Of a DNA stretch of 52,632 nucleotides, positions 4,997 through 52,471 are shown one piece after another. The notes beneath the pieces are model-generated. The model saw only the letters and a list, made by a program, of their open reading frames with translations, was not told the origin of the DNA and ran no database searches. How positions within the stretch are numbered: the stretch's first letter is position 1; the number at the start of each line of letters is the position of its first letter. Source of the stretch: a virus; IMG/VR virus record IMGVR_UViG_3300006162_000018, positions 1 to 52,632 of that record. One strand, given 5' to 3'. The position numbers were made by a program, and so were the translations under genes.

Positions 4997-5028
4997 TCGA
5001 CATTACAGGCGGTCATTTAGTCGGCTCA

Positions 5029-8478: not shown

Positions 8479-8746
8479 GCCGACCGAGCGAGATCGCGAG
8501 ATAGCGTGGATCTGGTTGCGGAGTCAGCCTTATATCTTCGACTCGGCTGCGGGCCATGATCTTGCCAAATCTTTCGCAGCTTGGCGCATTACCGCCCGCG
8601 AGGAGGGCCGGCGCGAGGCGGTCGAGGAATGCGCGAAGATCGCCGACGAGGTAAGACGCGAGGGCGCCGATGATGGTGTCGGGGGGGTTTGGCGATTGGC
8701 TTGCTCAGAGATTTCCCAGCGTATCAGGCACGGAGAAGTTAAATGA
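8471..8746 (+). CDS. Hypothetical protein, 91 aa
   Basis: The frame begins MAEPTERDREIAWIWLRSQP. The middle (REEGRREAVEECAKIADEVR) is a charged helix of the kind common in small phage proteins annotated as hypothetical. It has no membrane segment. Its stop overlaps the ATG of the exported PEP-CTERM-like gene, which suggests coupled translation. Confidence 0.65.
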   Translation: MAEPTERDREIAWIWLRSQPYIFDSAAGHDLAKSFAAWRITAREEGRREAVEECAKIADEVRREGADDGVGGVWRLACSEISQRIRHGEVK

Positions 8747-9405
8747 AAACCTTGCTCACCTCTACCGCGCTAGCACTGGCGCTCGCGTCCACTGCGGCGC
8801 ACGCAACCTGCGTCTCGACGACAGCGATCTCGGCGCCGGATTCGAGCGCCGGCACGACCTGCTCGATCACTGCGGCGGCATCGACGGTTGATATCGTCTT
8901 CGCCTACAAGGCGGCGTCGGACATTGACTTGCTGATCAACGGCACGACGACCTTGCTGAAGAACACCGATCCGCTGGGGACCGAGGCGGTTCTGACCGGG
9001 CTCACGCCGGGGCAGACGATCGGCTTCACCTGGAAGAACATGACCACCGGGGACAGCTTTCAGGCCGGGGTTCCGGCGAGCGACGGCAAGCAGCACATCG
9101 CGGTAGAGGCGGGATACGCCGACTTTCAGACCGACCCGCCGCGCCGCTATCTGACGGCGGCGGATCTTGGCGCTGCCTATGGGGTGATGACCGGGATTGC
9201 GCCGATCGCCGACTGGACCTTTGTCGGCATGGAGGATTTGCTGACGAACCAGGCGAGCGACTTCGACTACAACGATTTGGTTTTCGGGATGCGCGGCATC
9301 GACCCGCAGGTGGTTGAGCCGGCGATGGGGCTGACGGCGTTTGTGCTGTTCGGGCTGGCGGCGTGGTTTCGTCGCGGCCGGCGCGGCAGCTTCGTCGGCT
9401 TATGA
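8743..9405 (+). CDS. Exported protein with DUF4114-like motif and PEP-CTERM-like sorting tail, 220 aa
   Basis: The N-terminus MKTLLTSTALALALASTAAH is a Sec signal peptide, with likely cleavage after A-H-A near residue 21. The middle is beta-rich. Near residue 173 DFDYNDLVFGMR matches the D-x-D-Y-N-D-x-V-F signature of DUF4114-type domains. The tail has the three-part layout of PEP-CTERM signals: V-E-P-A (about 191-194), a hydrophobic stretch (MGLTAFVLFGLAAWF) and an R-R-G-R-R cluster. PEP-CTERM proteins are processed by exosortase in the bacterial envelope. No exosortase is in the window, so the host would have to supply it. A phage-carried (moron) function at the cell surface is my inference. 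ATG is coupled by ATGA. Confidence 0.8.
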   Translation: MKTLLTSTALALALASTAAHATCVSTTAISAPDSSAGTTCSITAAASTVDIVFAYKAASDIDLLINGTTTLLKNTDPLGTEAVLTGLTPGQTIGFTWKNMTTGDSFQAGVPASDGKQHIAVEAGYADFQTDPPRRYLTAADLGAAYGVMTGIAPIADWTFVGMEDLLTNQASDFDYNDLVFGMRGIDPQVVEPAMGLTAFVLFGLAAWFRRGRRGSFVGL

Positions 9406-17604: not shown

Positions 17605-17605
17605 C

Positions 17606-36504: not shown

Positions 36505-37248
36505 ATGGGCTGGGCTGATCGCGCTGGTCAGGCTACGGTCGATCCGCAAAGGCCACGTGCCTTCGGTGTGTGCGACGACTGCGGAGAATGGTACAATCGG
36601 CACAATCTCCGTGATCAATACGAGTGGTACGGCGCCGAGCTGACGGATACGCATCGGCGCGTCTGCGCTCGATGCCTTTCCAAGCCACAGGATCAGCTCC
36701 GTCCGATTTTGCTGCCGCCCGATCCGGTTCCGATCATTGATCCACGCCCGGAATATCCTAGCGTCCTGCAAAATCAGAATGGGTTTTCGTACTACGTCGG
36801 CCCACAAGGCACGACCATTATCAAACCGGTCGTCGCCGAACTCGACCCGACGATGCCGCTACCCAACAAAGCGGCGGTGCTGGCATCGGCTGCGAGTGGA
36901 TGGGGCGAGCCGATGCCGGCGACTCTGATCGACCGCGGCGGCACGATCACGCTCTCTGGCGTTGGGCAGATGATCACGGCCCCGAACCCTGCGCGTACCT
37001 ATCTCTTGCTGTTCAATCCGGCGTCTGGGCTCTTGGCGGCAGCGCAGGGCATGCCGCCGGTCTTGGGGATCTCGTCCGCCAATGTGCTGTCTCCAACCCA
37101 GGCTGAGACTGGGACGATCTTCGTGGGAACCGGATCAGGAGTGCTGCAAAACGGCACGAAGATTCCTCCGGATCCCGTATGGCTAGGTTCCGTTTGGGTG
37201 TTGGGCTTGATTCCCGGCCAGCCGTTCTTCGCTTGGGAGAATGGCTGA
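36505..37248 (+). CDS. Virion protein with N-terminal zinc ribbon, 247 aa
   Basis: ATG 36505 is chosen; upstream codons read through the preceding gene. Residues 23-57 hold two C-x-x-C pairs (GVCDDCGEWYNRHNL; RRVCARCLSKPQDQL), followed by PILLPPDPVPIIDPRPEYPS, a pattern that I know from proteins in phage structural clusters. The C-terminal half is a beta domain (RGGTITLSGVGQMITAPNPA). It probably joins the neck or fibre base; the metal site is predicted from the cysteines only. Confidence 0.7.
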   Translation: MGWADRAGQATVDPQRPRAFGVCDDCGEWYNRHNLRDQYEWYGAELTDTHRRVCARCLSKPQDQLRPILLPPDPVPIIDPRPEYPSVLQNQNGFSYYVGPQGTTIIKPVVAELDPTMPLPNKAAVLASAASGWGEPMPATLIDRGGTITLSGVGQMITAPNPARTYLLLFNPASGLLAAAQGMPPVLGISSANVLSPTQAETGTIFVGTGSGVLQNGTKIPPDPVWLGSVWVLGLIPGQPFFAWENG

Positions 37249-37694
37249 TGCGCTGGTTGGCACTCTTCCTCTTGCTGATCTCGACGCCGGCATGGGCGAC
37301 AAGCTCGATTGACCCGAATCAGCCGGCCGGGACAACTTATACCTCGGAACCGACCCGGAACAATTTCGCGGCTTTTGCCGCCGATGTGAATGCCCAGCAG
37401 AATTGCAATCGCGGTTCTATCCCCCCAGCCAATCCGCAAACTGGATATTGTTGGCTGAATGTCCTGAGTCCGACGACATATTGTTATGAAGTTTATTCTG
37501 GCTCGGGGTGGGTTCCGGTTTTTGCGATGTATCCGACGACCAATACTGTGGCTATGGCCGTGCAGCTACCGATTACCGCCCAGGCGATATTGACCGATGA
37601 TTCAGGTAGATATCTGCTGACCGATCCTTCAACGGGCTCCCTGCTCACTACTCCTACGACAACATTTTCGGTGTGGCAATGCGTCGCGCAGTGA
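37248..37694 (+). CDS. Exported protein, 148 aa, paralogue of 39533
   Basis: TGATG overlap sets the start. MRWLALFLLLISTPAWATSS is a Sec signal peptide with cleavage near A-W-A. The mature part shares S-x-I-(D/N)-P, P-x-R-N-N-F-x-A, then C-N-x-G-x-x-P-P and TGYCWLN with the 39533 protein, and ends in a beta-rich tail. It is the first of the signal-peptide genes in the fibre block. It might be an accessory part of the adsorption apparatus. Confidence 0.7.
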   Translation: MRWLALFLLLISTPAWATSSIDPNQPAGTTYTSEPTRNNFAAFAADVNAQQNCNRGSIPPANPQTGYCWLNVLSPTTYCYEVYSGSGWVPVFAMYPTTNTVAMAVQLPITAQAILTDDSGRYLLTDPSTGSLLTTPTTTFSVWQCVAQ

Positions 37695-39487
37695 TTGCAT
37701 TCCTGACGTTGTGGTGCGCTATTGTCTTCGGTCCTTCGGACGGACGCGCACAGAGCGCTTGTCCCGCGCCGCTACCTGCCGGCACTCTATGTTTCCCGTT
37801 TCCAGCCTACACGAATGCGGCGCCTCCTGTCACGACGCCCGCGTCAACCGATCGGACGCCCTACGTGCAGGGTTCGGTGACCCATTTCATCGGGCCGTGG
37901 GCGGTGAATGACGTTCGCCAATGGGGAGCGGTGGGCGACGGCGTGACGGATGACTCTGGTCATATCCAGGCCTGTCTTAGCGCCCAGCCGCCGGGCGGTT
38001 GCTTCGCCGGGGGCAAGCGGTATTTCATCGGTAGCGGCGTGCAGATTCCAGCCGGTTCGACCTTGGACTGCGGCTATGGGATGGGAGACCTCGGCAGCCA
38101 TACCAGCACACAGAGCAACCTCAACATCTACCCGGCGCTTCTGCTGACTCCAGGCAGCGGCGAGATCACCGCCAGCGGCCCCTCGGCTCGGGTCAAAGGC
38201 TGCCTGATCCTCAACAAGAACCTGACCTTTCCGGTGGCGGATAGCAGCGGCTTCGCCGGCATCGCCGTCGCCGATAACGGAAACGCTAGTTTCAATGTGG
38301 TGGATAGCGAGATCCTCGGCTTCGATACTACGATCTGGATCACCGGCAACCGGCCTTACTTGCAGCATCTGATCCTCGATGGTACGGGGATTTCAAAAGC
38401 CGCCCTCGAAATTGATGTCGGTAACACCGATAGCGGTATCGCCGACGACGTTAAGATCCAAACTGGGCAGTCTGCACCGTTTAGTTGCCCGAACGGCGAG
38501 CGCCCAGGTACAGGGGTACGTGTGGCCGGGACGCCTATCGGCGCCGCCGGCATTTTCATGAACAATATCGTCTCGCAGCCGTTTCAGACGGCTGATTACG
38601 AGTTCGATAATTCGGTGATTGCCCAGAATATCTGGGCAGACGGCGCTGGGATTGCGTGTGGTTTTGGCAGTTCAATCGGCGTTCTAATCAATAATCCCGG
38701 AGCAACCGTACAGATCGATACCCTGACGGCCGGGGATATGAATGTGCCGCTGGCGGTCAAAAATGGGTTGCTGATCGTAAACCAGATTTACGCGGAGTTG
38801 GCTGGCAGCGACGGAATCGAAGTAGGAACAAATTCGACCGCAGGACAAATATATGCGACGCAAGTTCAAATCGTCAGTGTAGGTCGGGTGAGCGGATATG
38901 GAGTTAACTTAGAAAATGTAAACTCTAGGTTCTCTGCAAATCAGGCAACCATCCTTAGCGCCAACGGTTCCGCGGCCCCGTATGTCGCCAATACCTCCGG
39001 CTCCAATATGTACATGGGTGGGAGCGGGAACAAACAAAACCTAGTTTACATCGGCAATCTTCGCACGGATCTATCCGTCACCACCAGCCCCTATAGCACT
39101 AATCTGTTCGCTGGAACGGGCAGTGACCCGATGCTGGCCGGGCTGAAACCCTCTCCCGGACCGATATGCAGCGACGTTGGTAGTGGCGGTACGTGCGCAT
39201 TGGATTCATCGAATAGTGACCAGAATGCTGGCACGCTTGTCATTACCGCCGGGTCGGGAGCCTTGGCGGCGGGCGAGTTCGATCTCGCGATGCCGGTTAG
39301 TTTCGCCTCTGGTCAGGCGTGTGTTGCTGCTCTACAGGTTGGAACCGGCGTTTGGGATCGCTTGGCCGGTTTTACCGTTGTGGGGCCATTGTCCGGGAAC
39401 GTCGTGGCCTTCGATTGGTCAAACAATAGTGTCAACCTGACACCGGGCGAGACCTATAAATTCGCGTACAATTGCCGCCCGCTATGA
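37679..39487 (+). CDS. Exported beta-helix (pectate lyase-like) tailspike, 602 aa
   Basis: ATG 37679 gives MRRAVIAFLTLWCAIVFGPS, a signal peptide ending near D-G-R-A-Q; GTG 37673 is an alternative two codons earlier. The stretch NDVRQWGAVGDGVTDDSGHI is the classic entry to right-handed beta-helix proteins such as pectate lyase-like tailspikes. Regular beta coils follow (GIFMNNIVSQPFQTADYEFD; GVNLENVNSRFSANQATILS). The C-terminal ~120 residues form a separate beta domain. Tailspikes bind or cut surface sugars; no catalytic pair could be assigned here. It overlaps the preceding gene by 16 bases. Confidence 0.8.
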   Translation: MRRAVIAFLTLWCAIVFGPSDGRAQSACPAPLPAGTLCFPFPAYTNAAPPVTTPASTDRTPYVQGSVTHFIGPWAVNDVRQWGAVGDGVTDDSGHIQACLSAQPPGGCFAGGKRYFIGSGVQIPAGSTLDCGYGMGDLGSHTSTQSNLNIYPALLLTPGSGEITASGPSARVKGCLILNKNLTFPVADSSGFAGIAVADNGNASFNVVDSEILGFDTTIWITGNRPYLQHLILDGTGISKAALEIDVGNTDSGIADDVKIQTGQSAPFSCPNGERPGTGVRVAGTPIGAAGIFMNNIVSQPFQTADYEFDNSVIAQNIWADGAGIACGFGSSIGVLINNPGATVQIDTLTAGDMNVPLAVKNGLLIVNQIYAELAGSDGIEVGTNSTAGQIYATQVQIVSVGRVSGYGVNLENVNSRFSANQATILSANGSAAPYVANTSGSNMYMGGSGNKQNLVYIGNLRTDLSVTTSPYSTNLFAGTGSDPMLAGLKPSPGPICSDVGSGGTCALDSSNSDQNAGTLVITAGSGALAAGEFDLAMPVSFASGQACVAALQVGTGVWDRLAGFTVVGPLSGNVVAFDWSNNSVNLTPGETYKFAYNCRPL

Positions 39488-39532
39488 GACTGATAGCGTT
39501 CGTCGCCAATCCGCTGGGTCATTGAGGAGCCA

Positions 39533-40006
39533 ATGCGCCGCGTTTCCCCTTTGATCGCGGCAGCACCGATCGCATGCTTGGTCCGCGCGATCGTCATCAT
39601 CGTCGCCGTCCTGGTCCTTGGCGTGCAGCCTTTTGTTGCCAAGGCCAATAGCACGATCAACCCGGCGATGCCTCAATCCGGCGTGCCCTACAACTCAGTT
39701 CCGATCAGAAACAACTTCCAAGCCGGCGCGAACGATATCAACGGTTTGCAGACCTGCAATCAGGGCGCGACGCCCCCCTCGGCCCCGAACACCGGATATT
39801 GTTGGCTGAACACCAGCAATTCGGCGCTTTGGTGCCGCGAAATCTACAACGGCGTGTTGAGCACCTGGACGCCGGTCTACGCGATAAATCCGATCACGCA
39901 ACAGGTTACGTTTGGGTCGTGCGCCGTCACCCCCTCACTAGCCTTGGGGTTGTACTCTGGTGGAACGCTGGGTCTCTATAGTGGAGGGTCGCTTGGCTTA
40001 TATTAG
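39533..40006 (+). CDS. Exported or anchored protein, 157 aa, paralogue of 37248
   Basis: A GAGGAG site precedes ATG 39533. Residues about 12-38 (IACLVRAIVIIVAVLVLGVQ and on) form a hydrophobic segment that can be a signal peptide ending near V-A-K-A. The mature part mirrors 37248 (STINPAMPQSGVPYNSVPIR, then NNFQAGANDINGLQTCNQGA). The C-terminus ends in three tandem copies of LGLYSGG-like repeats. The gene overlaps the start of the next fibre gene. Confidence 0.65.
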   Translation: MRRVSPLIAAAPIACLVRAIVIIVAVLVLGVQPFVAKANSTINPAMPQSGVPYNSVPIRNNFQAGANDINGLQTCNQGATPPSAPNTGYCWLNTSNSALWCREIYNGVLSTWTPVYAINPITQQVTFGSCAVTPSLALGLYSGGTLGLYSGGSLGLY

Positions 40007-42710
40007 ACGGACTCTCTATGGGGCGCTGGTTGCCCTGGTCTCGGCTGGTCCTGCCGCGGCTCAGACAACGACCCTTGTGGGGAATATTGCGACACCGACG
40101 ACGGTGCCGATGGTATCCTTCAACAATTGTTTTTATGTCGGGCAGGGAGTTAGCGGATCAACCGGAACCGATACCAAGCTTTGTGCGAGCACAGCGGCTG
40201 GCTGGGCGAACGCTTTCGGCTTGGCGCCGATTACGACGATCGGTTCGGGACTAACTCTCAGTTCCGGCGTCTTAGCGGCAACTGGCGGCGGCGGGACGCC
40301 CGGCGGATCAAATCAAGCTGCACAGATCAACAGCTCCGGCTCCTTTGGCGCGATCGGCCCCACAGCGAGCAACCTCTTTGGCTGGAACGCATCGGGGATC
40401 GCGACCCCAATCGTGCTGGGAACGAATCTATCGCTGTCAGGCTCGACGCTGAATGCCACTGGCGGCAGCGGAACGCCGGGCGGGTCGAACGGCCAGATTC
40501 AGTATAACAATTCCGGCGCGTTTGGCGGCTTTACCTTCAGCGGCGGCATGACGGTTACGCCATCAACCGGCGTTGTCGTGCTTGGCAATCCGGGGCCTTC
40601 CACCCTCGGCGGAATCGAGAGCATCGCGCAGGCTGCCGGCGAGTTCGTTCAGTACATCGACACATCCGGAGTCCCGCATCTGGCGACGCCATCCGGCGGC
40701 GGTAATTTCAGCGGCCCCGGAAGTGCTGTCTCCAATGACCTCGTCTCGTTCAATGGCACGTCCGGCACCGTAGGCCAGGATAGTGGCATTCTCTCGACCA
40801 ACGTCGTCACCGCGGCGGCCACGCTAACTTCAAATGCCCTGACCTTGGGCGGCGGCTCCAAGGCAGTTTCCGTGCTCGGGTCTCTCGGCACGACGACGAC
40901 CTTGCTGCATGGCAACGGCGCCGGCCCACCATCCTTCGGCGCGGTTGTCCTGACGACCGATGTGAGCGGCGTCCTGCCCCTGGCAAACGGCGGGAGCAAT
41001 GCGGCCCTGACGGCAGCCGCTGGGGCCGTCCCCTATTCCACAGGCAGCGCGTTGGCATTGCTGGCCGCCGGCACGTCGGGGCAATTCTTAGAGTCTCAGG
41101 GCGCGGCCCCGCCGATTTGGGGCTCGCCTTCCGGTTCAGGCACAGTCGGAAGCTGCTCGACGGCGGATGCGCTGGCCTACTACGCCGCGACAGGAACGAC
41201 GACTAGCTGCTTGGCTGGCGTCGGCACTTCGGGGCAGGTGTTGACCAGCAACGGCACGGGCGTTGCGCCGACATTCCAGGCCGCTGGCGGTTTCACGGCG
41301 CCCACGCTTTCCCCCGGCTTGGCTACGACGCCGGGAACCTACAATGCCGGCGCGCAAACTCTTACATCAGGCAGCACGCTGTCGCCGCAGATTTTCTACA
41401 AGGCGGAAACATCGAGCTGCACCCTCAACTCGACCTGCAATTCGCCATCGACAAACGACACGGCTCTGTTGCCGACATTCACCAATGCGAGCCTGACGGG
41501 GACTCTGCCAAATCCGAGTACGGTGGGTTCTGGCTCGTACCAGATCGGCTATGACGGCACTCACAGCTATTCGGTGACGACGGTCGGTGGCACCGCCAGC
41601 ATCTACGGTTGCGGCACGCCCGGAACGACGGTCTCGGGAATCGCCTACCAGACTCAGTTCGTTACCGACGGCACGAATTATCAGTGCATCCCGAGCGGCG
41701 CGAGCAGTGGTTCCGGCGTGACCAGCGTCGGGCTGACGGTCCCGGCCGCGTCGATCTTCGGTGTCACGGGATCGCCGGTTACGACGAGCGGCAATCTCGG
41801 GCTGACAACGACCGTGACCTCGGGCGGTGTACTCTATGGATCTTCTGGGACGCAGGTCGCGTCGAGCGGCGCACTGACGGTAAATGCCCTTGTCAAGGGC
41901 GGTGGGGCTGGGACGGCTCCAAGTCCCTCGTCCGTGACAGACAACGGCACGATCGTAAATGCGAGCGCCGAGCCTATCCAAGTCGCTCAGGCATATTCGA
42001 CTCCGGGCGCTCTGACCGATGCGTCAACGGTCGCGGTGAACGCCGCTCTCAGCAACAATTTCACCTTGCTGATGACTTCCGGGATCGGCGCGACCCGCGC
42101 GTTGGGCAATCCGTCGAATTTGGTTGCTGGGCAAGTTCTGAACTTCGTCGTCACTCAGGACCCTACAGGCGGCCGGTTGCTGACTTTCGGGTCGGATTAC
42201 ACGGGGACCATTGCCCTGAATGCCGGGGCAAACGCGGTAACGCCGTTCTCGTGCGTGGCAAACACCTCCTCGACCTTGCAGTGTGCGGGCGGGGCCTCGA
42301 TCACTCCGGCCATCGCGCAAAGCTCTCCGTCGAACCCGACCGGCACGACATCGACGACGCCGGTCATGATGGGGCTCGCCGGCACGCTGACCCCACTTTA
42401 TAAAACCCGCATGTTCGTCTCGATCCAAGGGACGATTGCCAATTCGACGATCTCCGATGGGGCGACGGTGCGCTGCTATTTCGGGACGAGCACGGCGCCG
42501 ACCAATGGTGCCGCCCTTACCGGGACCGCGATCGGCTCGGCCCGCACAAACTCGACGCTGATCGCCGGGGCCGGGGTGCCGTTCTCATGTGGGGGCTGGG
42601 TGACGGGCCTCACAGCCAACACGGCATACTGGATCGACGCGGCGGTTGCTGCGGTTACGGGCGGGACGGCCTCGATTACCGCCGTCGATATCTCCGCAAA
42701 TGAGTTCTAA
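39993..42710 (+). CDS. Exported tail-fibre protein, 905 aa
   Basis: TTG 39993 follows GGAGGG by 4 nt; GTG at 39960 or 39981 is possible. The N-terminus LAYIRRTLYGALVALVSAGP then AAAQ is a signal peptide. The body is built of repeated fibre motifs: two G-G-x-G-T-P-G-G-S-N blocks (about residues 96-165), a G-x-I-Q-Y-N-N-S-G-A-F-G element, and two G-T-S-G-Q-(F/V)-L-x-S-(Q/N)-G repeats (GTSGQFLESQGAAPPIW; GTSGQVLTSNGTGVAPTF). The end is a beta domain. The repeats mark it as a long trimeric fibre. Confidence 0.75.
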   Translation: MAYIRRTLYGALVALVSAGPAAAQTTTLVGNIATPTTVPMVSFNNCFYVGQGVSGSTGTDTKLCASTAAGWANAFGLAPITTIGSGLTLSSGVLAATGGGGTPGGSNQAAQINSSGSFGAIGPTASNLFGWNASGIATPIVLGTNLSLSGSTLNATGGSGTPGGSNGQIQYNNSGAFGGFTFSGGMTVTPSTGVVVLGNPGPSTLGGIESIAQAAGEFVQYIDTSGVPHLATPSGGGNFSGPGSAVSNDLVSFNGTSGTVGQDSGILSTNVVTAAATLTSNALTLGGGSKAVSVLGSLGTTTTLLHGNGAGPPSFGAVVLTTDVSGVLPLANGGSNAALTAAAGAVPYSTGSALALLAAGTSGQFLESQGAAPPIWGSPSGSGTVGSCSTADALAYYAATGTTTSCLAGVGTSGQVLTSNGTGVAPTFQAAGGFTAPTLSPGLATTPGTYNAGAQTLTSGSTLSPQIFYKAETSSCTLNSTCNSPSTNDTALLPTFTNASLTGTLPNPSTVGSGSYQIGYDGTHSYSVTTVGGTASIYGCGTPGTTVSGIAYQTQFVTDGTNYQCIPSGASSGSGVTSVGLTVPAASIFGVTGSPVTTSGNLGLTTTVTSGGVLYGSSGTQVASSGALTVNALVKGGGAGTAPSPSSVTDNGTIVNASAEPIQVAQAYSTPGALTDASTVAVNAALSNNFTLLMTSGIGATRALGNPSNLVAGQVLNFVVTQDPTGGRLLTFGSDYTGTIALNAGANAVTPFSCVANTSSTLQCAGGASITPAIAQSSPSNPTGTTSTTPVMMGLAGTLTPLYKTRMFVSIQGTIANSTISDGATVRCYFGTSTAPTNGAALTGTAIGSARTNSTLIAGAGVPFSCGGWVTGLTANTAYWIDAAVAAVTGGTASITAVDISANEF

Positions 42711-42720
42711 GAGGATGACG

Positions 42721-43281
42721 ATGATGCTGAAAAGACTGTTCCTCGCATTTGCGTTGGTGCTCGCACTGGCGCAGGGCGCAAATGCTGCCAGCCGATCGGC
42801 ATGGACCGCAGGTAACGGGGTCGGTTATACATGGACCGCCGTAATGGCGTCCGGGGATATGACCTCGCTTGCCAACGGCAGTACAGTTCTATCGAGCGCC
42901 AGCTCGATCACAAACCAGACCGCTCAAGATCAGTTTATGGATCTTGGCGGGGTCTGGACTGTTGCCAGCGCAACGCCCCCGGCCGGCGCTTACATCGGCA
43001 TCTATCTAGTGCCTCTGAATAGTGATGGCGCGACGTTCGGAACGGGAGAAATGGCCTCCGGTTCGACCATCACTCGCGCCCCGGCTGCCGGTCTTGTTTG
43101 CAGCATGCCGCAAGAAACCGCCGCCGCCACAACGACACTCGCAGGAACTTGCACCGGGATCATCATCCCGCCCGGTAGCTTTAGGATCGCCGTATTCAAT
43201 GGCTCCGGTGCGGGGTTAAGTTCAACCGCGGGCAACAACACCCTGCTTTATCGTACCTACAATATCAACCTCAACAACTGA
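42721..43281 (+). CDS. Exported beta-rich protein, 186 aa
   Basis: AGAGG lies just upstream. ATG 42721 is chosen for spacing over ATG 42715. MMLKRLFLAFALVLALAQGA followed by NA is a clear signal peptide. The mature domain starts SRSAWTAGNGVGYTWTAVMA and has a jelly-roll-like strand pattern with two cysteines (LVCSMPQETA; GTCTGIIIPP). Its size fits a fibre tip or cap subunit. It has no known catalytic motif. Confidence 0.65.
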   Translation: MMLKRLFLAFALVLALAQGANAASRSAWTAGNGVGYTWTAVMASGDMTSLANGSTVLSSASSITNQTAQDQFMDLGGVWTVASATPPAGAYIGIYLVPLNSDGATFGTGEMASGSTITRAPAAGLVCSMPQETAAATTTLAGTCTGIIIPPGSFRIAVFNGSGAGLSSTAGNNTLLYRTYNINLNN

Positions 43282-43285
43282 TCTT

Positions 43286-44221
43286 ATGGCATACCTTACA
43301 GGATATGCGTCGATCGCTCGACGCGCGGCATCTGGAGTAATCCCGAGCATTGCGACCAGTCATCCTTTAGCGCGGGGGCTGCTCGCCGCGTACTATCCGG
43401 CGACGGCTCCCAATGGTACATTGCAGAACCTCGTAGCAGGCGGCAACGGCAATCTGACGACGCGTGTTGGCGTTGCGGTTGGGCTTTCGCCAACTCCCGA
43501 GGGACCAGGTCTTCTTTATTCCGGCCAGGCGACAGCATCATTTGGCGGCGCATGCCCTTCGACATTTCAATTATCTTCCGGCCAATCTCTTTTTGTGAGA
43601 ATGAAACGAGGGCCAACCGTCTATCAAGGTGGGCATGTTGCTTATTTATTTGGGGTTGCGATTACTTCCAGTCCGTTCAATTGCTATATTATAGGGACGG
43701 GGCTGAACGGAAGCACGGGAAATGGGCAATTAGGACTATTGTACCAAACGACCGCTTCGTCTTACATCGGAACTGCCATACTGCCTCTAAACACGATGGC
43801 TTCTGCGGGAGCTACGTTTGGGTCCGGCGCTCCCGGCAAATTGTACGTGAATGGCGCACAAGATACGGTAACAGGTTCGCCACCAAATGTGAACATCACC
43901 ACTTACACTCCTAACCCGACTATATATCTAGGGCTACAGAATACGACCGACTCTGTCTATGCCACAATCACTGTGGCTTATATTTGGGGACGACCCCTGA
44001 ACGATGGAGAGCATCGTTATCTTGACGCCAATCCCTATTCGCTGCTGCGCTGGCCGGTTGATATCGTTTATGATACAATTGAAAATCAAACGACGGTGCT
44101 TCCATCAGGCGTGATCGTTAATAAACCCATGATTTTCTCCCCGTTGATGCTTGCGGGCGTCGGCGGTCTGGAGTGGCTACGAAAACGCAAGATCAAGATG
44201 CGGCAATTGCGGGGGCAATAA
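43286..44221 (+). CDS. LamG/concanavalin-like lectin protein with hydrophobic-basic C-terminus, 311 aa
   Basis: The frame starts four bases after the previous stop. After a non-signal N-terminus (AYLTGYASIARRAASGVIPS), the domain has the pattern of phage LamG-like proteins: HPLARGLLAAYYPATAPNGT, a G-K-L-Y-V-N-G-A-Q-D loop, and VAYIWGRPLNDGEHRYLDAN followed by P-Y-S-L-L-R-W-P. The last 30 residues are a hydrophobic stretch (FSPLMLAGVGGLEWL) with a basic tail (RKRKIKMRQLRGQ), like a membrane or sorting anchor. The sugar-binding role is by family. Its DNA is AT-richer than that of its neighbours. Confidence 0.75.
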   Translation: MAYLTGYASIARRAASGVIPSIATSHPLARGLLAAYYPATAPNGTLQNLVAGGNGNLTTRVGVAVGLSPTPEGPGLLYSGQATASFGGACPSTFQLSSGQSLFVRMKRGPTVYQGGHVAYLFGVAITSSPFNCYIIGTGLNGSTGNGQLGLLYQTTASSYIGTAILPLNTMASAGATFGSGAPGKLYVNGAQDTVTGSPPNVNITTYTPNPTIYLGLQNTTDSVYATITVAYIWGRPLNDGEHRYLDANPYSLLRWPVDIVYDTIENQTTVLPSGVIVNKPMIFSPLMLAGVGGLEWLRKRKIKMRQLRGQ

Positions 44222-46165
44222 GTGCGTCGATGGCTTCTTGCGGTTCTGCTGCTGCTGTTGTTCTGCGGGTCAGCCTCGGCGCGATTTCTACCCGGCGGCG
44301 GCAGCGCGCCGATTACGACCTACACGCCGCTGTGCGGCGGATCAAACCCGACGTGCATCTATACCTACTCGACCGAGCGCCAGATGGCCTCGACCGCGAC
44401 CACGGCGATCCAGGTATACCGCTCGGTCGATGGTACGATGCAGGATATCGGTTTCACCAGCGCCGGGCTGGTCAACACCGCAACCGTCGATGCATTTTGC
44501 AACGCCTCGGTCGGCGGGGTGATCTCGCGTAACTGCTTGCTCGCGCAGATATACGACCAGTCGGGCAACGCCTGCCCGATCTGGAACGCCAACGCTTCGA
44601 CTATGCCGGATTATTACGTCGATCCGGGGCATCAGGGGCTACCGCGGTTCCAGGCGGTGTATCAAGGCAGCGGCGCCGTATTCAGCTTCCTGCTCGACAG
44701 CGGCGGCACGACGCAGAACCCGCCCACCCATCATTGCGCCGCCTTGACCGGCCCGGCGCAATCCTTGTTCTTCGCCGGCAACAGCAGCTATGGGGCGTTC
44801 TCTTCAGGGCAGAACGGCCTCATGGAAGGTACGGTCGCGAGCGGGCCACAGGGCGCGATGTTCGCCGCCTTCACCGGACCTTCGGGATACGCCTACGATC
44901 ATTGTTTAACTTCGTCACCCTGCGGCGGCATGGATACAGAAGCGCAGGGGCCGCAGTACAATTATACTCGCACCAGCAACGATGATTTCATCGATATCGC
45001 TGCGGCTCCTACCAGCGGTAACAGCCCGTGGAACGTTTGGATCAACAACGTAAATGTCAGTGCGCCGTTCGCGCCCGATAGCGTGGTTGACGCGCTAGTG
45101 ACTGGGTTCCGCATGACGTGGGGCGCGTCCGGCGATCATTCTCAGCATGGGCCGAACATCGGGCGTTCTGAATCGTTCTACAACTCGGTTCTATCCTCGG
45201 GACAGGTAGCGGCGCTTTACAGCAACGAGACCAGCTTTGTTGCGGGACTGACGACCGGGTATGTCGGTCCCGGCGACAACGCGATCGCCGGCAATGAAAA
45301 CAGCTATTCGACCGGCCTCACCTCGCAAAAGGTGCTGCAATTGCAGTGGCTGTCGCAGTGCTTCTCTTTGCGCAAGTGCTATGCCGGATATGAGGGGCCG
45401 GCGCTGAACGCCTGCCAGGGCAGCGGGGCATGCGAGGATATCGGTTGGGTCAACAACATCATCGACACCGCGACCCTGAGCGCGTGGTGCGGGCCGGTGA
45501 GCGGGCTCAATAACTGCGCGGCGCAGATTTGGTACAACGAGGCGCTCAACCAAGCGAGCGACACCAACGGAGTCGGCACCGGGATCGACGCCACGGCGGT
45601 ATCATCGTCGAACCGGCCAGCGATCTTGTGGTCCGGCTGCGGTACTTCGGCGATCACGGTTTGCATCCAGACCAGCGCCACCAACTACTTCACCACAGCC
45701 GGAATCACCGTCACCGGCGGATACACGATGAGCGCGGTGGCGATGCGGACCGCGGGAACGAGCGCGAGTGCGATCCTTTCCTCGGTTTCGACCCCGGAGA
45801 CTTTCATCGGGTTTGGCGCGGCGAACACCTGCACCGGCAGCGCCACATCGGGCGGCGGCGCATCGACCGTGGCCTGCAACGACAATGTGGTTCACAGCAT
45901 TACCGTCGATGCCCACACGTCGCCCTCCGCATCGACGATCACCTATGCCGACGGTACGGCGGGAACGGCCAACATCTCGGCGATCGGCTACAGCGCCAGC
46001 GGGCTCGGCGTCGGCGCGACCGGCGCCGGACTCGACCCTTGCGCTTGCCAGTTGAGCGAAGTGCTGGTCTATACCGACGCGCACAACACCAGCTACAATA
46101 CGGCCCTTGGCTCATCGGGCGTCGCTCTCTTGCGTGCCAATCAGCGCGCAGTCTTCGGGTTCTAG
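44222..46165 (+). CDS. Exported protein with two arabinofuranosidase B-like (GH54-like) domains, 647 aa
   Basis: GTG start directly after the previous stop. MRRWLLAVLLLLLFCGSASA is a signal peptide, followed by RFLPGGGSA, shared with the next two proteins. Domain 1 (about 37-345) has YSTERQMAS, A-I-Q-V-Y-R-S-V-D, MQDIGFTSAGLVNTATVDAF and LAQIYDQSGN, the pattern of alpha-L-arabinofuranosidase B catalytic-type lectin folds. Domain 2 (about 350-645), after YVGPGDNA, repeats the pattern in weaker form (DIGWVNNIIDTATLSAWC; CAAQIWYNEALNQ). Whether either domain is active is not shown; in phages such folds often only bind sugars. It is probably a receptor-binding protein. Confidence 0.75.
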   Translation: MRRWLLAVLLLLLFCGSASARFLPGGGSAPITTYTPLCGGSNPTCIYTYSTERQMASTATTAIQVYRSVDGTMQDIGFTSAGLVNTATVDAFCNASVGGVISRNCLLAQIYDQSGNACPIWNANASTMPDYYVDPGHQGLPRFQAVYQGSGAVFSFLLDSGGTTQNPPTHHCAALTGPAQSLFFAGNSSYGAFSSGQNGLMEGTVASGPQGAMFAAFTGPSGYAYDHCLTSSPCGGMDTEAQGPQYNYTRTSNDDFIDIAAAPTSGNSPWNVWINNVNVSAPFAPDSVVDALVTGFRMTWGASGDHSQHGPNIGRSESFYNSVLSSGQVAALYSNETSFVAGLTTGYVGPGDNAIAGNENSYSTGLTSQKVLQLQWLSQCFSLRKCYAGYEGPALNACQGSGACEDIGWVNNIIDTATLSAWCGPVSGLNNCAAQIWYNEALNQASDTNGVGTGIDATAVSSSNRPAILWSGCGTSAITVCIQTSATNYFTTAGITVTGGYTMSAVAMRTAGTSASAILSSVSTPETFIGFGAANTCTGSATSGGGASTVACNDNVVHSITVDAHTSPSASTITYADGTAGTANISAIGYSASGLGVGATGAGLDPCACQLSEVLVYTDAHNTSYNTALGSSGVALLRANQRAVFGF

Positions 46166-46166
46166 G

Positions 46167-47840
46167 ATGCGCCGCCTCTTCGTGGCGCTCGCGCTTCTGG
46201 TGCTTGGTTCATCAGCCGCACCGGCAAGATTTTTGCCGGGTGGTGGAAGCGCATCGAGTGGCAGCGTCACCAACGTAATCGCCGCCGCGATCACTAACGA
46301 GAACGTGCCTCCTAGCTCGTCTCCGGGCTTTCAGATCGGTGACCTGAGCGCGACCGTGACCGGCGGCGGCCCTTGCACGACCTGCACCTGGACTATGATC
46401 AACACGGGCAGCGCGGCACAGGGCAACGGATGCGGAAGCCAAAGCAACAACTTCCAGGTTGCTAATTTTGGAAGCGGCGCTGCGCACTTAGAGGTGCTGA
46501 GCAGCGGCCTGACCGCTCGGATCTGGGGTGCGACGCCGACGGCAGTATCTTCGTCATCGGAAACATATATCTGCGCCAAGGCGACCCCAGCCGTGGGTGC
46601 GTCTTATGTGTTCGCGTTCTCGATCATCGTGCGCGCCCCGATGATCACCAGCGTCTCGCCGCGGAAGGTTCAGTACACACTAGGCGTGGCACAGTCGATA
46701 CCGCTCTCGGCGACGATATGCTGGACGAATTGCCACCAAGGCGGATCGGCGCCGACGCCGACCTTTACCTTGGGCAGCGATGCGGCCTGCACCGCGTCGG
46801 GCATTTCGATCTCCGGCTCAAGTCTCAATCTCAGCTCGTCCTACGCTGGCGCTGGCGTTTGTCACATTGTAGTTGCGGCGACTGGTGCGAACTGCGCGGT
46901 CCTCGGCTACGTCACGGCTACGCCGACGACGTGCAACGCGGCCGTTAATATCACGCAAGGGGCGTATGTTGGCCCCGGCGACGACTCGGCGCTCGCTGGC
47001 CTCACTTGGTATGTTTGGGCCGAGCCATACGCCTTCAGCGCCGCCTACGCGGCGGCTGGTGGGCCGATCTGGAAGGTCATCCGCGAGAGTGATCAGCAGC
47101 CGTTCACGATCAACGCCCTATCAAACGGCGACATGGACGTTGCCACCATGGCGACCGATTGTGACACGTCGATCTGCGCGCTGGATGATCCGGTGGATCA
47201 GAGTGGCAACAGTCCGGCGAACGATATACCGGCGTGGTCTAATAGTCACGGTTCCCCGCCACCCGTGACTATTTGGCATCCCATAGTATTGTTCAATAGT
47301 ATAAACGGCTCGATGCCGGCTTATAATTCCAGCAATCCTAATGACAGGCTACTGTATAACCCCACCACCTATACTGGCGCAGGAACAACGGGAACGCTTG
47401 GCATCGTCGCCCAAACAATCAGTGTCCCCGGATCTAATAGTTATTTGATGGCATTTAACGACGGGGTGACACCGGGAACATTCTTGTATTTTCCGTCATC
47501 TGGCAACGGCGGCGGTGCGGGCGTGTGGGTTGGGCCGCACAACTTCACCGGGGGAACTGGCATCCAGGATACAGCGCCTGCTGCGGGCGCGTTCCACAGC
47601 ATCATTGCAACCATCAACGGTACGAGTTCGATCCTGGATGCGGATGGCAATCAAACTACGGGAACATTGGGGACTGCGGCTATCAATAAGCCGGCAGGAA
47701 TATTTGGCGATTTCGGCGGCGGCTCCAATACGGGTAACGGCGTCGGCTTCTTTATCTTGGCGTCCGTTCTAACATCAACGCAACTCAGCGTCCTCTGCAC
47801 GTATGACCAGATAAATTTTGCGACGAGTGGGTCATGCTGA
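46167..47840 (+). CDS. Exported spike-type protein with an arabinofuranosidase-like domain, 557 aa
   Basis: ATG 46167 sits one base past the previous stop. MRRLFVALALLVLGSSAAPA is a signal peptide, then RFLPGGGSA. Residues about 25-265 are beta-rich and contain several cysteines (GGPCTTCTWTMINTG). From YVGPGDDSAL (about 266) a domain follows that resembles those in the gene before it (AFSAAYAAAGGPIWKVIRES, then DDPVDQSGNS). It shares both the leader and the linker with its neighbour, so the three genes look like shuffled modules. Confidence 0.7.
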   Translation: MRRLFVALALLVLGSSAAPARFLPGGGSASSGSVTNVIAAAITNENVPPSSSPGFQIGDLSATVTGGGPCTTCTWTMINTGSAAQGNGCGSQSNNFQVANFGSGAAHLEVLSSGLTARIWGATPTAVSSSSETYICAKATPAVGASYVFAFSIIVRAPMITSVSPRKVQYTLGVAQSIPLSATICWTNCHQGGSAPTPTFTLGSDAACTASGISISGSSLNLSSSYAGAGVCHIVVAATGANCAVLGYVTATPTTCNAAVNITQGAYVGPGDDSALAGLTWYVWAEPYAFSAAYAAAGGPIWKVIRESDQQPFTINALSNGDMDVATMATDCDTSICALDDPVDQSGNSPANDIPAWSNSHGSPPPVTIWHPIVLFNSINGSMPAYNSSNPNDRLLYNPTTYTGAGTTGTLGIVAQTISVPGSNSYLMAFNDGVTPGTFLYFPSSGNGGGAGVWVGPHNFTGGTGIQDTAPAAGAFHSIIATINGTSSILDADGNQTTGTLGTAAINKPAGIFGDFGGGSNTGNGVGFFILASVLTSTQLSVLCTYDQINFATSGSC

Positions 47841-50800
47841 TCCGGCGCTTGTTGCTGGTGGCGGCCCTGCTGATCGGGGTGGCACCCACTGGCTCGGCGC
47901 GGTTCCTGCTGCATAGCGGCGGTTCGAGTGGAACATCCTCGGGTGATGTTGCCAGCATTACCGAGCGAAACACCGGACCATCGACGACACCGGGCTCGAC
48001 TTTTCCCGCGCAATTTGCGGCAAACTTTGCACAGGATGCGGTTCCCGTCGGATCGATTGCCGTGCCGAGCATCGGCGGATCGTCGATTGTCTATCAGAAC
48101 GATTGCGCCGCCGAGGGTTGCCCGATGTGGCCGGCGCACGGCGCTTCGCCGGCATCGTTGAGGCAGGGGATCTTCTCGGTCATTGAGCCGCAGCTCGCTA
48201 GTACTTCTGAGCAGACCGCGCATTTCACGGTGACAGCCGGCTCCTACAATACGACGACAACCGTAACTCCGGCGTCTCTAGCCGCTCATGACGATTGGGT
48301 AATGACCCTGAATCATGTCAATGATTCCTGGGTCAACACTCATCCGGCGGCAATGAATGTCCCGCACGGAACCTATGTCGGCTGCTATGCGGACCCAACG
48401 ACGCACAGCATTACGAGTTGCGGGGTTCAACAGCACGCACCGACCACGACGAGTGGCCTGATTGGGCAGAACTGCTCAAACCAAGGGGCTGGCGCTTGTA
48501 CCGGATACACCTACCTAGCCGGCGTAGCTACAACCACATCCTCCACGCTCCCTAACACGATCTACTTCGACCCAACCGCGAGCCAGCCGTCATTAAATCC
48601 GAATTGCATCAATAACTGCGTGCGTATCGGATCGGTGGTAACCGACGCCACCACGAGCGGCGTGATCCCATCTTTGGCAACCGTGGCCCTCAGCGGCACG
48701 GGCTCGACGACGTCAACCTCGGCGGGCTCATTGGCTGGCGCGACGACACTTACATTCGCCAGCACTCCGACCGCGCCTCAATACGCCTTGGTTGTTGATG
48801 TAAACACTCCATCGGCAATCACGGCCGGGACTTATGTTTCAGTCACGCCGAGTTCGGGAACCGTGACGATCTCGGCGCCGGTTACTGGCCCTGGCGTCGG
48901 ATCTGGCGACACGATCAAGTTCTATACGTTCGTCCAGCTATCGGCGAACGTAACCGCCGGAGGAGTCGCACAGGGTGATAGCGTCAATTTCAGCTATACC
49001 GTGTTGGGCTCGACCGGGACGCCGGCGGCGATCAGCTTCAATCAGACAAACAATCTGGTCACTTCGGTTAATGTTCTTACGCCGGGTTCGGGATACGCGA
49101 CCGAGGGTAGCGGGACATGGGTATTCGATTTTAATACGATCTTGAATGAGTACGGCTCGACTCAGCCGCATCAATGCGATCAGGTTGGCGGAGCCGCGAC
49201 CTTTACCGGAACTGTCTCTGGAACGAGCCTCACATCATCGGCGGTGACCGGCACGATCTCGCTCTTGCAAGTGGTTACCGACTCCGCCACCCCGCCACAC
49301 ACTGCTTTGATCACCGCGGGCTCCGGGTCGAGTTGGACGGTCGCGAACGGCACCCTCGTATCTGGAGCCATGTCGTCGAATGAGCCTCTATGCATCTACG
49401 GTCAGGGCACTGTGGCGGCGAAGTACCAACTCTGGGGGCCGTACATCGACACGACGACTGGTGCGCGGCACCCGTGGCTCTATGGTCGCGGCACCATCGA
49501 GGCGTGGACCAATGGAACCGGCTCTATCGTCGAAACCCGTCCCGTCATGGGAACCACGACGGGAATGGTTTATGTCAACTCGGTAATCCCGAGCTACACC
49601 TTCGACGCTGAGTGGACCGATAACGGAACGACGGTGCGCGGGGCCTCGATAGGATCGTCTGGGTTCAACGCGATCGTACAAGAGAACAACGGCATTTGGT
49701 ATTCGGTTGGGACCACGGCCAACAGTCTCGGGCCGCCGCAGAGCGGTCGGCCGGATTGGAGCGCCAACAGCGATGCTTTCAACAACGTCATCCTAGCTTT
49801 CACGACACCAGACAAGGTGTTGTTTAAGGCGTCAGGTGCGCAACTGCCGCTTAACGATTGCCTGAGCGCCGGGCCACCCCCATCCAACTGTAGCGGGACC
49901 GCTGTTTCGGTAACGCCGGCAATCTTGCCGGCGATCTCGCTTACTAGCTGGGGCTCGCCTTCGACAATGGTGAATACCTACGTGCCGTACACGTTCGGCG
50001 GCATGGATACGAACCTTACCTTGTCGGGCGGCGGCAATCATTGGTGGTTTGGCCCGGTCCCAACGCACGCCATCTATTGGTACGAAAGCACCGATTGCTC
50101 GCCCGTAAGCAGCAGTTGCGACCGCGGCGCATCTTGGCTCAACAATCTTCGGGTTGCGTCGATAGCCGAGCTTGGCACGTTCGATGGAATACGGGAACCC
50201 GCTACCTACAATCCGGTGAACGTCGTCAGCGACACGTCAGTTTTCAGTAACCCAGCTTTCACTGATACAGTGAAAACAAAGTTCAATTTCCGTGGCGACA
50301 CGAATGTCTTCGGAACTGTATCCGGCGGGGCGTATCCACATAGTCTCGATAGATCACTTGACGATCCGACGCACTTCGTTCCTCTTCCGCCCTCTATGTA
50401 TGTCCTCGAAGGCGAGCGCTTTATGCTGGATGGCTTGGAGGGATTTACCTCTGGCGATCAAATACATTACAATCTTACCGGCAACAGCGGCGGCACTACT
50501 CTCGGCAGCGCCACGACGCTCACTTCGCTCGGCACGACGTATTATGGCATATTCCTGGATAATAGCCCGCGCGGTATGGGGTGGTCGTGGGATTCCCTGC
50601 GGGAAAACGCCACTCTTAGCCCGCCGAACGAGCCGATCGGAAAGTATTATAGGTTTCTACAGGAAGAGAACTATGACTTTCAGTTGGCCTTCATACCTTA
50701 CGTCGGAAGCGGAACCGTCGGCAGTAGTCTGACGTTTACGAAGGGATATGATCTCACAAATATCGGTCTATTCACGAGCCCTCAAATCCTTTCAACCAAC

Positions 50801-51952
50801 AACATAGCCCCACTGACAATCCTGTGGCAGGATTACTACTGGCACATGGGTGAGGAAGAAGGCGCCATGTTACAGGGCGTCGGCGGCTCAACAGCGGCGG
50901 CGGCGGTCGATAATATCATCCTCAATAATTACGCCGTCAAGAATCCTGCCGTGAACTGCGTCTTCAATGATCTCTCGTACAGCAATCTTTGGGCCGACGA
51001 GGCGACGCAAGTACCTAATGCTAATTGGGATGCGACCAATCCGGCGACGGCGACGCGCTTCAACGGCTACCGTAACACGACGATTACCGCAATCGGCGGA
51101 CAGTCCGAGGTTTCGGCGTCGCTATTTAATGCGGGATTTAGCGGCAATACTCAGATGACTGCCGCGACAACGGGTGCTGGATCGGCAGTCAATGTCACGT
51201 CTATCCCCGGCAGCGTATTGATCGGCGGCATCATTTACGATCAGACGACGCCGAGCGCTATCGTACCACCTGCGGGATCTAGCTTCGCATGGATTACGGC
51301 GACCGGCGGAACGACTATCACTATGTCGGGAACCACTACAGGCATTACGGCTGGCGATGTGATTCAGGTTTCAGCGAAATTGATTTATCCGCTCAACGGA
51401 GCTAATTCGGCCGCGATCCCTGGCGACAGCATAATTTCGCCGATCAACGCAGATACGGCGGATGAAGGGGTGCCAAATGGCTTTAATATCGGCACCTTTC
51501 CGCCACCGTCCACTCCCTCGATAGTAGGTGGCACGCACTATTATTGGTGTCCCGATCAAAACGGCCTCTCGGTCGGGGCGGCGGCTGGATATATCAGCAC
51601 GACGCACTGCGGGATCGCGAATAGCACCATGACGCCGATCATGTTCACGGGTGGCGTACCGGTCGGCGGCACTTCGGCAGTTAACCAGTTTCAGGTCGGC
51701 TGGGTTCCTAATCGAAGCTGCCCGACTGGTATTCCGGGGCAGTCCTCGGATTGGCAGGGTGGGTCCGAGATCGGCGGCACGCAGTCCTACGGACTCGAAA
51801 TGCTGGCGACCGTCAAATCCGACCAGGCCATCCGCGGCGTGACGGCCGACAACACGGCGGCGATCGCCAACCTCGCGCCGTACTGGCCGCCCTCGTCCCT
51901 GGCCGGGCTCCCGAGCTGGGCGACCTCGCAAACGCTGACGCCGGGTCCGTGA
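47834..51952 (+). CDS. Very large exported spike/fibre protein, 1372 aa
   Basis: ATG 47834 overlaps the previous stop by 7 bases. MLIRRLLLVAALLIGVAPTG followed by SARFL is a signal peptide with the same R-F-L leader as its neighbours. The mature part is rich in Ser, Thr, Gly and Asn and in beta strands. It has repeated Ig-like strand runs (about 260-420) and aromatic-rich segments (VAAKYQLWGPYIDTTTGARH; DYYWHMGEEEGAMLQG). The C-terminus ends SLAGLPSWATSQTLTPGP. It is the largest protein in the cassette. It may be a receptor-binding or depolymerase protein; no catalytic motif could be fixed. Confidence 0.7.
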   Translation: MLIRRLLLVAALLIGVAPTGSARFLLHSGGSSGTSSGDVASITERNTGPSTTPGSTFPAQFAANFAQDAVPVGSIAVPSIGGSSIVYQNDCAAEGCPMWPAHGASPASLRQGIFSVIEPQLASTSEQTAHFTVTAGSYNTTTTVTPASLAAHDDWVMTLNHVNDSWVNTHPAAMNVPHGTYVGCYADPTTHSITSCGVQQHAPTTTSGLIGQNCSNQGAGACTGYTYLAGVATTTSSTLPNTIYFDPTASQPSLNPNCINNCVRIGSVVTDATTSGVIPSLATVALSGTGSTTSTSAGSLAGATTLTFASTPTAPQYALVVDVNTPSAITAGTYVSVTPSSGTVTISAPVTGPGVGSGDTIKFYTFVQLSANVTAGGVAQGDSVNFSYTVLGSTGTPAAISFNQTNNLVTSVNVLTPGSGYATEGSGTWVFDFNTILNEYGSTQPHQCDQVGGAATFTGTVSGTSLTSSAVTGTISLLQVVTDSATPPHTALITAGSGSSWTVANGTLVSGAMSSNEPLCIYGQGTVAAKYQLWGPYIDTTTGARHPWLYGRGTIEAWTNGTGSIVETRPVMGTTTGMVYVNSVIPSYTFDAEWTDNGTTVRGASIGSSGFNAIVQENNGIWYSVGTTANSLGPPQSGRPDWSANSDAFNNVILAFTTPDKVLFKASGAQLPLNDCLSAGPPPSNCSGTAVSVTPAILPAISLTSWGSPSTMVNTYVPYTFGGMDTNLTLSGGGNHWWFGPVPTHAIYWYESTDCSPVSSSCDRGASWLNNLRVASIAELGTFDGIREPATYNPVNVVSDTSVFSNPAFTDTVKTKFNFRGDTNVFGTVSGGAYPHSLDRSLDDPTHFVPLPPSMYVLEGERFMLDGLEGFTSGDQIHYNLTGNSGGTTLGSATTLTSLGTTYYGIFLDNSPRGMGWSWDSLRENATLSPPNEPIGKYYRFLQEENYDFQLAFIPYVGSGTVGSSLTFTKGYDLTNIGLFTSPQILSTNNIAPLTILWQDYYWHMGEEEGAMLQGVGGSTAAAAVDNIILNNYAVKNPAVNCVFNDLSYSNLWADEATQVPNANWDATNPATATRFNGYRNTTITAIGGQSEVSASLFNAGFSGNTQMTAATTGAGSAVNVTSIPGSVLIGGIIYDQTTPSAIVPPAGSSFAWITATGGTTITMSGTTTGITAGDVIQVSAKLIYPLNGANSAAIPGDSIISPINADTADEGVPNGFNIGTFPPPSTPSIVGGTHYYWCPDQNGLSVGAAAGYISTTHCGIANSTMTPIMFTGGVPVGGTSAVNQFQVGWVPNRSCPTGIPGQSSDWQGGSEIGGTQSYGLEMLATVKSDQAIRGVTADNTAAIANLAPYWPPSSLAGLPSWATSQTLTPGP

Positions 51953-52233
51953 TGGAAGAGGGGCACGCGATGATCGTCGCCGGCACCTTGGCCGGGTTTG
52001 GGGCATTGGCGTGGTACGTGCGCAGCAGTGCCGCGATTCAAGCCAAGGCGATGGATAAACTCGCGGCGGCGATCGAGAAGCTGCGGGACCGCCTCGATAC
52101 CATAGGGGCTCCGTCCCGCGCGGAGCACAACCAGCTTGCGGCCCAGGTCAATCAGATCGCGCTGCGGCAGGTGCAGATCGGTACCGAGCTGGAAGAGCTG
52201 CGGCATTCGCGGCGCGAGGGGGATGGGGGGTGA
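51952..52233 (+). CDS. Small membrane-anchored coiled-coil protein, 93 aa
   Basis: TGATG overlap with the giant exported gene. MEEGHAMIVAGTLAGFGALA then WYVRSS gives one N-terminal transmembrane segment. The rest is coiled coil (AMDKLAAAIEKLRDRLDTIG). Downstream of fibre genes such a protein is a candidate for a holin, spanin or other envelope factor; no motif decides it. Confidence 0.65.
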   Translation: MEEGHAMIVAGTLAGFGALAWYVRSSAAIQAKAMDKLAAAIEKLRDRLDTIGAPSRAEHNQLAAQVNQIALRQVQIGTELEELRHSRREGDGG

Positions 52234-52471
52234 AGTGGATCGCAATGGTGGCGATCCCATAACTTTCGTGCGGGCGATCTTTTTGGTCATCCTGACCGCG
52301 ATTTTTACCCTATCAGGCTGGTCGCTATGGAAGATCAACGAACTGGACGAAGAGATCCATAATAGCTCGGCGCTCCTTGTGATCCTAGAAAACGAGGTCG
52401 TCGAGCTTCATAAGGACGTTCGGAATCTTGAAATCTACACTTATCCGTCACAGAAAATCCCGCCGCAATAA
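52223..52471 (+). CDS. Small membrane-anchored coiled-coil protein, 82 aa
   Basis: ATG 52223 has a GAGGGGG before it and overlaps the previous gene by 11 bases. One transmembrane segment (FVRAIFLVILTAIFTLSGWS) is followed by an acidic coiled coil (LWKINELDEEIHNSSALLVI, then LENEVVELHKDVRNLEIY). With its neighbour it forms a pair of similarly built proteins, perhaps the start of a lysis cassette. It ends 12 bases before the apparent IS end. Confidence 0.65.
   Translation: MGGEVDRNGGDPITFVRAIFLVILTAIFTLSGWSLWKINELDEEIHNSSALLVILENEVVELHKDVRNLEIYTYPSQKIPPQ

Follow-up and report, generated by a model that had tools for sequence, protein, structure and literature searches.

Assembly of tailed phages is taught as a wholly cytoplasmic process, and phage fibres normally fold and join the virion inside the cytoplasm. 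Exported phage proteins of other kinds are also familiar, including the morons Lom of phage lambda, whose gene sits among the tail genes, and Llp of T5, as well as the coat proteins of filamentous phages, such as pIII of M13, which are virion proteins carrying Sec leaders and disulfides. Phage proteins using the host Sec pathway before lysis include Lys44 of fOg44 and the SAR endolysins (PMC6116005), and a detachable tailspike, TspA, has been described for RcGTA with no mention of a signal peptide, the periplasm or disulfides (PMC13420450). The individual parts, fibres, Sec leaders and Sec-exported endolysins, are already known (PMC6116005); for Sec-exported tail fibres, or fibre sets combining leaders with disulfides, no published description was found in the open-access papers searched.

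The stretch of DNA analysed here, referred to below as the window, corresponds to a possibly partial virus record from IMG/VR, 52,632 bases long. Its main features are listed in Table 1. Relatives of its capsid and portal genes sit in genomes of Rhizobium, Bosea, Bradyrhizobium and Acidisoma, and more distant ones occur in Caulobacter phage RW and Roseobacter phage CRP-901. Contig G001 is identical to the window over 33.9 kb, cassette included. Searches of the window for end repeats, tRNAs and Rfam families were all negative. One minus-strand gene encodes a ribosome modulation factor domain. The DUF4114-like gene at 8743-9405 adjoins the terminase gene on its upstream side and carries a clean leader, which is unusual in a phage; its DUF4114-like region scores below the cut-off, its C-terminal tail, of the form EPA-hydrophobic-RRGRR, resembles a PEP-CTERM sorting signal and the PEP-CTERM models gave no match to it.

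Table 1. Features of the window; genes are named in the text by their first position, and arrows mark predicted cleavage sites.
Coordinates	Strand	Feature	Details
4435-5016	-	RMF (ribosome modulation factor) domain gene	Pfam 2.6e-9
8743..9405	+	Separate DUF4114-like protein with leader	Leader MKTLLTSTALALALASTAAHA↓TC; hydrophobic-basic C-terminal tail; 2 mature Cys
9784-11418		Large terminase	
17564-21253		Ejection-type proteins with tail lysozyme domain	
24567-26807		Portal	
31887-32795		Major capsid protein	
36505..37248	+	Conserved structural gene, Cys-rich zinc-finger-like N-terminus	Syntenic anchor upstream of cassette
37248..37694	+	Short fibre N-domain protein	Leader 37248-37298, MRWLALFLLLISTPAWA↓TSSIDP; 4 mature Cys
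37679..39487	+	Spike-like protein	Weak pectate-lyase/tail matches; leader 37679-37750, MRRAVIAFLTLWCAIVFGPSDGRA↓QSACP; 12 mature Cys
39533..40006	+	Paralogue of 37248, likewise a short protein with the fibre N-domain	Leader 39533-39646 (or from TTG 39578), ...VAKA↓NSTINP; 4 mature Cys
39993..42710	+	Long fibre-like protein, TTG start	Leader 39993-40061, ...AGPAAA↓QTTT; 12 mature Cys
42721..43281	+	Small protein	Leader 42721-42786, ...QGANA↓ASRSAW; 2 mature Cys
43286..44221	+	LamG/concanavalin-like protein, no leader	Laminin_G_3 E=0.003, below curated cut-off; 2 Cys in 311 aa
44222..46165	+	Protein with two repeats, judged by eye	Leader 44222-44281, VRRWLLAVLLLLLFCGSASA↓RFLPGGGS; 20 mature Cys
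46167..47840	+	Leader-bearing protein	Leader 46167-46226, MRRLFVALALLVLGSSAAPA↓RFLPGGGS; 14 mature Cys
47834..51952	+	1372-aa protein	Leader 47834-47899, MLIRRLLLVAALLIGVAPTGSA↓RFLLHSGGS; 18 mature Cys
51964..52471	+	Two small membrane-protein genes	Directly 3' of cassette

All nine cassette reading frames described in the first-pass annotation of this DNA are present at the same coordinates. Leaders were scored with a home-made procedure combining a von Heijne-type cleavage matrix with h-region hydrophobicity and n-region charge; all of the six E. coli leaders used as references were recognised by it. An n-h-c leader with an SPI site was scored in eight of the nine cassette proteins, in agreement with the eight leaders over nine genes counted in that annotation, whose heading, "seven of eight", was a miscount; every cassette leader that it listed was called, and it had overlooked the clear ninth leader at 8743-9405. 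The sole cassette gene for which the scorer makes no call, 43286, had also been recognised as leaderless and it encodes a hydrophobic-basic C-terminal tail (PMIFSPLMLAGVGGLEWLRKRKIKMRQLRGQ).

With one rule applied throughout, Sec-type leaders occur in 8/9 cassette genes as against 2/51 other window genes (Fisher 1.5e-7). Under a strict rule the cassette retains 7/9, compared with 1/51 for the rest of the window (7e-7) and 3/370 genes in seven control phages, T7, P22 and five others (2e-11), the fibres of which lack leaders. Most leaders are 17-24 residues long with clean A-x-A sites and the weakest cleavage site is that of 37679 (GRA↓QS). For 47834 the scorer placed cleavage later and the site GSA↓RF was picked by analogy with 44222 and 46167. 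Since the leader predictor is approximate, one might suppose that these are hydrophobic N-termini lacking any export function, arising by chance or from wrong start codons, but the degree of enrichment, the recurrence of leaders in unrelated contigs and the cysteine parity described below render this hardly credible.

Two of the cassette proteins, 37248 and 39533, share an N-domain with leaderless fibres. In contig G003, a leaderless fibre of 950 aa, starting MTVQQSTINPTQPPEGSPLTSAPVRSNFQAAYNDIN, lies directly behind the 36505 homologue, and on alignment with it the mature starts of 37248 (AWA↓TSSIDPNQP...PTRNNF) and 39533 (AKA↓NSTINPAMP...PIRNNF) coincide with the leaderless start. A second leaderless syntenic case is L035, whose fibre matches tail-fibre PHROGs at 1e-18; the window's cassette genes other than 37248 and 39533 gave only weak matches. 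MTVQ-QSTINPTQP of G003 and MTLQ-TSTIIATNP of L035 are to be compared with AKA↓NSTINP and AWA↓TSSIDP of the window and AQA↓TSTIDP of L029. A scan for the N-domain yielded eight species-level contigs and a leader is present in 6/8, with diverged leader sequences; the leader-bearing cases are the window (twice), L029, L193/L208/L209, L197/L205, L198/L203 and L201/L202. Judged from sequence, the leaders have been joined precisely to a fibre N-domain. In L029, L193 and G003 this domain forms one protein with a long spike or fibre, and in the window it makes up a separate short reading frame upstream of 37679 and of 39993. Both members of each overlapping pair, 37248/37679 and 39533/39993, carry leaders, which would fit with parts that meet outside the cytoplasm.

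In Gram-negative bacteria, exported proteins tend towards an even number of cysteines and avoid odd numbers because of disulfides (PMC7678975). Cysteine constitutes 1.92% of the mature leader proteins of the window as against 0.52% of other structural proteins (p = 2e-12), and 66 of the 86 cassette cysteines lie in close pairs (permutation p = 2e-4), while the leaderless fibres of relatives carry 0-2 cysteines in 560-950 aa. Even, paired mature cysteines are a feature of Dsb substrates, and the mature count is even in all nine leader proteins of the window and in 26/28 of those collected. Adding the Bm1 protein (even) and the GH5 protein L162 (odd) gives 27/30 (p = 4e-6). Some of the collected proteins are mutual homologues, and with one member per family group the count is even in 23/24. 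A smaller first set was even throughout (21/21) and two odd cases came with its widening; the odd counts are those of L185, L202 and the GH5 protein L162, which lies outside its cassette. When leader cysteines are included only 18/28 are even, whereas all eight proteins with one leader cysteine have an even mature part, and leaderless controls are even in 80/137. This pattern would not be expected unless the chains exit the cytoplasm minus their leader cysteines. Parity alone is no proof of cleavage, because an odd leader cysteine could be buried in the membrane.

That possibility, together with the very long hydrophobic stretch of 39533, for which the first-pass annotation had allowed an anchor, would accord with N-termini that stay uncut and tether the fibres to the inner membrane as signal anchors. 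However, 39533 also scores well as a leader when started at the internal TTG at 39578 (VRAIVIIVAVLVLGVQPFVAKA↓NS) and, therefore, need not be an anchor. Moreover, the length and clean sites of most leaders, the conserved mature starts behind diverged leaders and the leaderless homologues which start exactly at the cut all speak against anchoring, and we regard it as very improbable.

The first-pass annotation had suggested looking for the same leaders in homologues, and they were found in relatives, in Bradyrhizobium and Acetobacteraceae proviruses and in myophage-like contigs, with the sequences diverging and the signal-peptide pattern retained. Leaders occur on all three visible cassette genes of L029, on three consecutive genes in both L203 and L071, and on several adjoining genes in L208/L209. 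We read L202, L203 and L205 as myophage-like, from a baseplate-J-like gene upstream, and the leader trait is therefore not confined to the capsid group of the window. The third leader gene in the myophage-like fibre cluster of L203 (7705-8394) gives a weak match to outer-membrane beta-barrels and recalls lambda lom, next to tail genes.

In the Bradyrhizobium proviruses L125 and L127 the cleavage site is followed by a conserved start, ...A↓QIFPPAG(G/S)GG, and then by TAGGDLAGTYPNP, a fibre-type repeat. Related fibres are present in five genomes of the Acetobacteraceae, the family of Acidisoma, of which four keep QYAPFxPPGG behind diverged leaders, for example MMLFRCGLVAGALAVPVSAWA, MISLRYGLIFSGLVLPVSAWA and MKMRAVIVGLSLWAPAPAVA, whereas L186, the fifth, differs in both leader and start. 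These provirus motifs lie where the three neighbouring genes 44222, 46167 and 47834 have RFLPGGGS or RFLLHSGGS directly past the predicted cut, and all these starts are perhaps variants of one shared mature N-terminal motif. Burkholderia phage Bm1 (PP183292) encodes a protein of 1001 aa, CDS_0099, which starts MKKLVSALLLFAASVGVLA↓QNYPSP and carries 10 cysteines, mostly in close pairs. Its C-terminal domain is common to the Acetobacteraceae leader fibres and occurs also in BcepF1 gp012, which has no leader and one cysteine. With both phage and host named in its record, Bm1 offers an experimental system for leader fibres. True leader fibres were found in four (about 10%) of the 39 relatives whose sequence extends 5 kb or more past the capsid gene and they are, consequently, a minority trait; an apparent leader in L124 was judged false, being Arg-rich. 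Three independent lines, the aligned mature starts, the recurrence and the cysteines, indicate that the cassette leaders are functional, and export with folding outside the cytoplasm appears very probable. The earlier claim of an exported fibre set, unexpected for a phage, is supported by leader enrichment, recurrence and the content and parity of cysteines.

The cassette starts with a one-base overlap of the stop of 36505..37248, its internal spacings range from -16 to 45 bases and a small membrane-protein gene begins 11 bases past its end; this gene and its neighbour may, from their position, be lysis genes. It follows the homologues of tail adaptor 35643 and of 36505, at the same site as in L029, L208/L209 and G003, and homologues of 36505 adjoin the fibre locus in G003-G006, MW202675, L029 and L208/L209. 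This is the usual place of tail fibres and fits with late expression. Inside the cassette there is no excess of promoter-like sites, compared with shuffles, or of terminator-like sites.

This gene order bears on lysogenic conversion, in which a lysogen would make the proteins as a surface coat or adhesin set, like Lom or Llp on a larger scale. The related proviruses of Bradyrhizobium and Acetobacteraceae, the resemblance of 8743 to a surface-sorted protein and the outer-membrane-barrel-like leader gene behind the fibre of L203 would all accord with such a role. The tight coupling to late structural genes argues against it, as does the promoter result; the one-base overlap and the 11-base gap to the membrane-protein gene look like late lytic expression, and no integrase was recognised among the left-side genes scanned of this possibly partial record. 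We therefore consider a lysogen coat improbable. Of the three fates offered at first pass, periplasmic maturation is the best supported.

The description of the set as fibre-, spike- and lectin-like is likewise supported. Weak matches were obtained for 37679 (pectate-lyase-like), 43286 (LamG) and 8743 (DUF4114), and 39993, whose TTG start is preceded by GGAGG, has local matches to phrog_4757 and to a Cyanophage PSS2 fibre. In the related phage L071, a cassette leader protein is a GH5 cellulase (1.6e-14) and another leader-bearing GH5 cellulase is encoded outside the fibre cassette (L162:7020-9383; 3.5e-17). Given these pectate-lyase, LamG, DUF4114 and GH5 matches, the proteins likely bind or degrade glycans. 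Among 50,697 phage records no direct homologues of 37679, 39533, 43286, 44222 or 47834 were detected and 39993 gave short local matches only; IMG/VR scans for 44222, 47834 and AxARFLPGGG recovered only the near-identical contig G001. A PDB sequence search gave no match and AlphaFold2, run on single sequences, gave no usable model for 37679 (pLDDT 37) or 44222 (pLDDT 32). Resemblance of 44222, by eye, to alpha-L-arabinofuranosidase B was not confirmed by Pfam. Neither Pfam nor NCBIfam showed a C-terminal barrel or anchor of an outer-membrane autotransporter or adhesin, and the leader proteins showed no recognisable lysin domain.

The same activities raise the possibility of export and oxidation without any later attachment to the virion. 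The proteins would then act as soluble lectins or depolymerases, freed at lysis or secreted, that remove exopolysaccharide or mask receptors on sister cells and debris. The two cellulases of the L071 phage, one of them inside the cassette, the LamG, pectate-lyase and DUF4114 matches and the precedent of the detachable biofilm-degrading tailspike of RcGTA (PMC13420450) would accord with this. Nevertheless, the N-domain is the start of leaderless syntenic fibres and shaft-like sequence is kept, both of which would be needless in pure enzymes, and we consider a purely soluble role unlikely, if the most substantial of the alternatives.

The explanation that we favour, and consider probable, is that the cassette encodes a late-made, Sec-exported set of fibre, spike and glycan-binding proteins which acquire disulfides in the periplasm and are released by lysis, and some of which may dock on virions. 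Starting from the leaders, their recurrence and fusion to a fibre N-domain, the pairing and parity of cysteines and the operon position, we infer the following steps. The cassette would be transcribed in line with the virion structural genes in the late phase, and the proteins would cross the inner membrane unfolded via Sec and then lose their leaders. Disulfides would form in the periplasm, where the Dsb system works, with the aid of that host system. The exported pool would be kept apart from the cytoplasmic virions until lysis, which likely releases it and mixes the two. Some proteins might then dock on released virions through the N-domain common to leaderless homologues, and others may work unattached, binding or degrading glycans. 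Docking is the least certain step and we place it slightly on the doubtful side of an even balance, an estimate based on the shared N-domain and on the classical addition of tailspikes and fibres to particles in vitro. The window also carries a fibre-like, leaderless gene, 15564, with weak tail-fibre matches, and the virion may therefore carry its own fibres. Points against the favoured explanation are the leaderless 43286 within the cassette, the odd cysteine counts of L185 and L202 and, outside the cassette, of the GH5 protein L162, and the scarcity of leader fibres among relatives.

More tentatively, the periplasm could serve some tailed phages of proteobacteria as a folding chamber for disulfide-stabilised fibres, with virions completed after lysis, and such a two-compartment assembly route could, with similar reserve, have arisen repeatedly by addition of leaders to ordinary fibre genes. 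If so, the receptor-binding part of some virions would be made in another compartment and added late; alternatively, phages would supply soluble proteins active on glycans as a public tool. Either outcome would affect work on host range, depolymerase discovery and virion annotation, since recombinant expression of fibres in the cytoplasm would have to take leaders and cysteines into account.

Of the known systems, cytoplasmic fibres and tailspikes (P22 gp9, T7 gp17 and those of G003 and L035) share with the cassette the site after tail-adaptor genes and shaft- or spike-like sequence and, for G003 and L035, the N-domain, but they have no leader and the leaderless relatives carry 0-2 cysteines. 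Sec-exported endolysins make the same use of host Sec, although they are single lysis enzymes and the cassette encodes a fibre set. Lom and Llp are exported like the cassette proteins but are single, not fibre-like and lack the fibre N-domain. M13 pIII combines a Sec leader with disulfides, as the cassette proteins do, but belongs to the membrane assembly of a non-tailed virion. Finally, TspA of RcGTA, an alphaproteobacterial tail enzyme able to act off the particle, can be likened to the cassette proteins.
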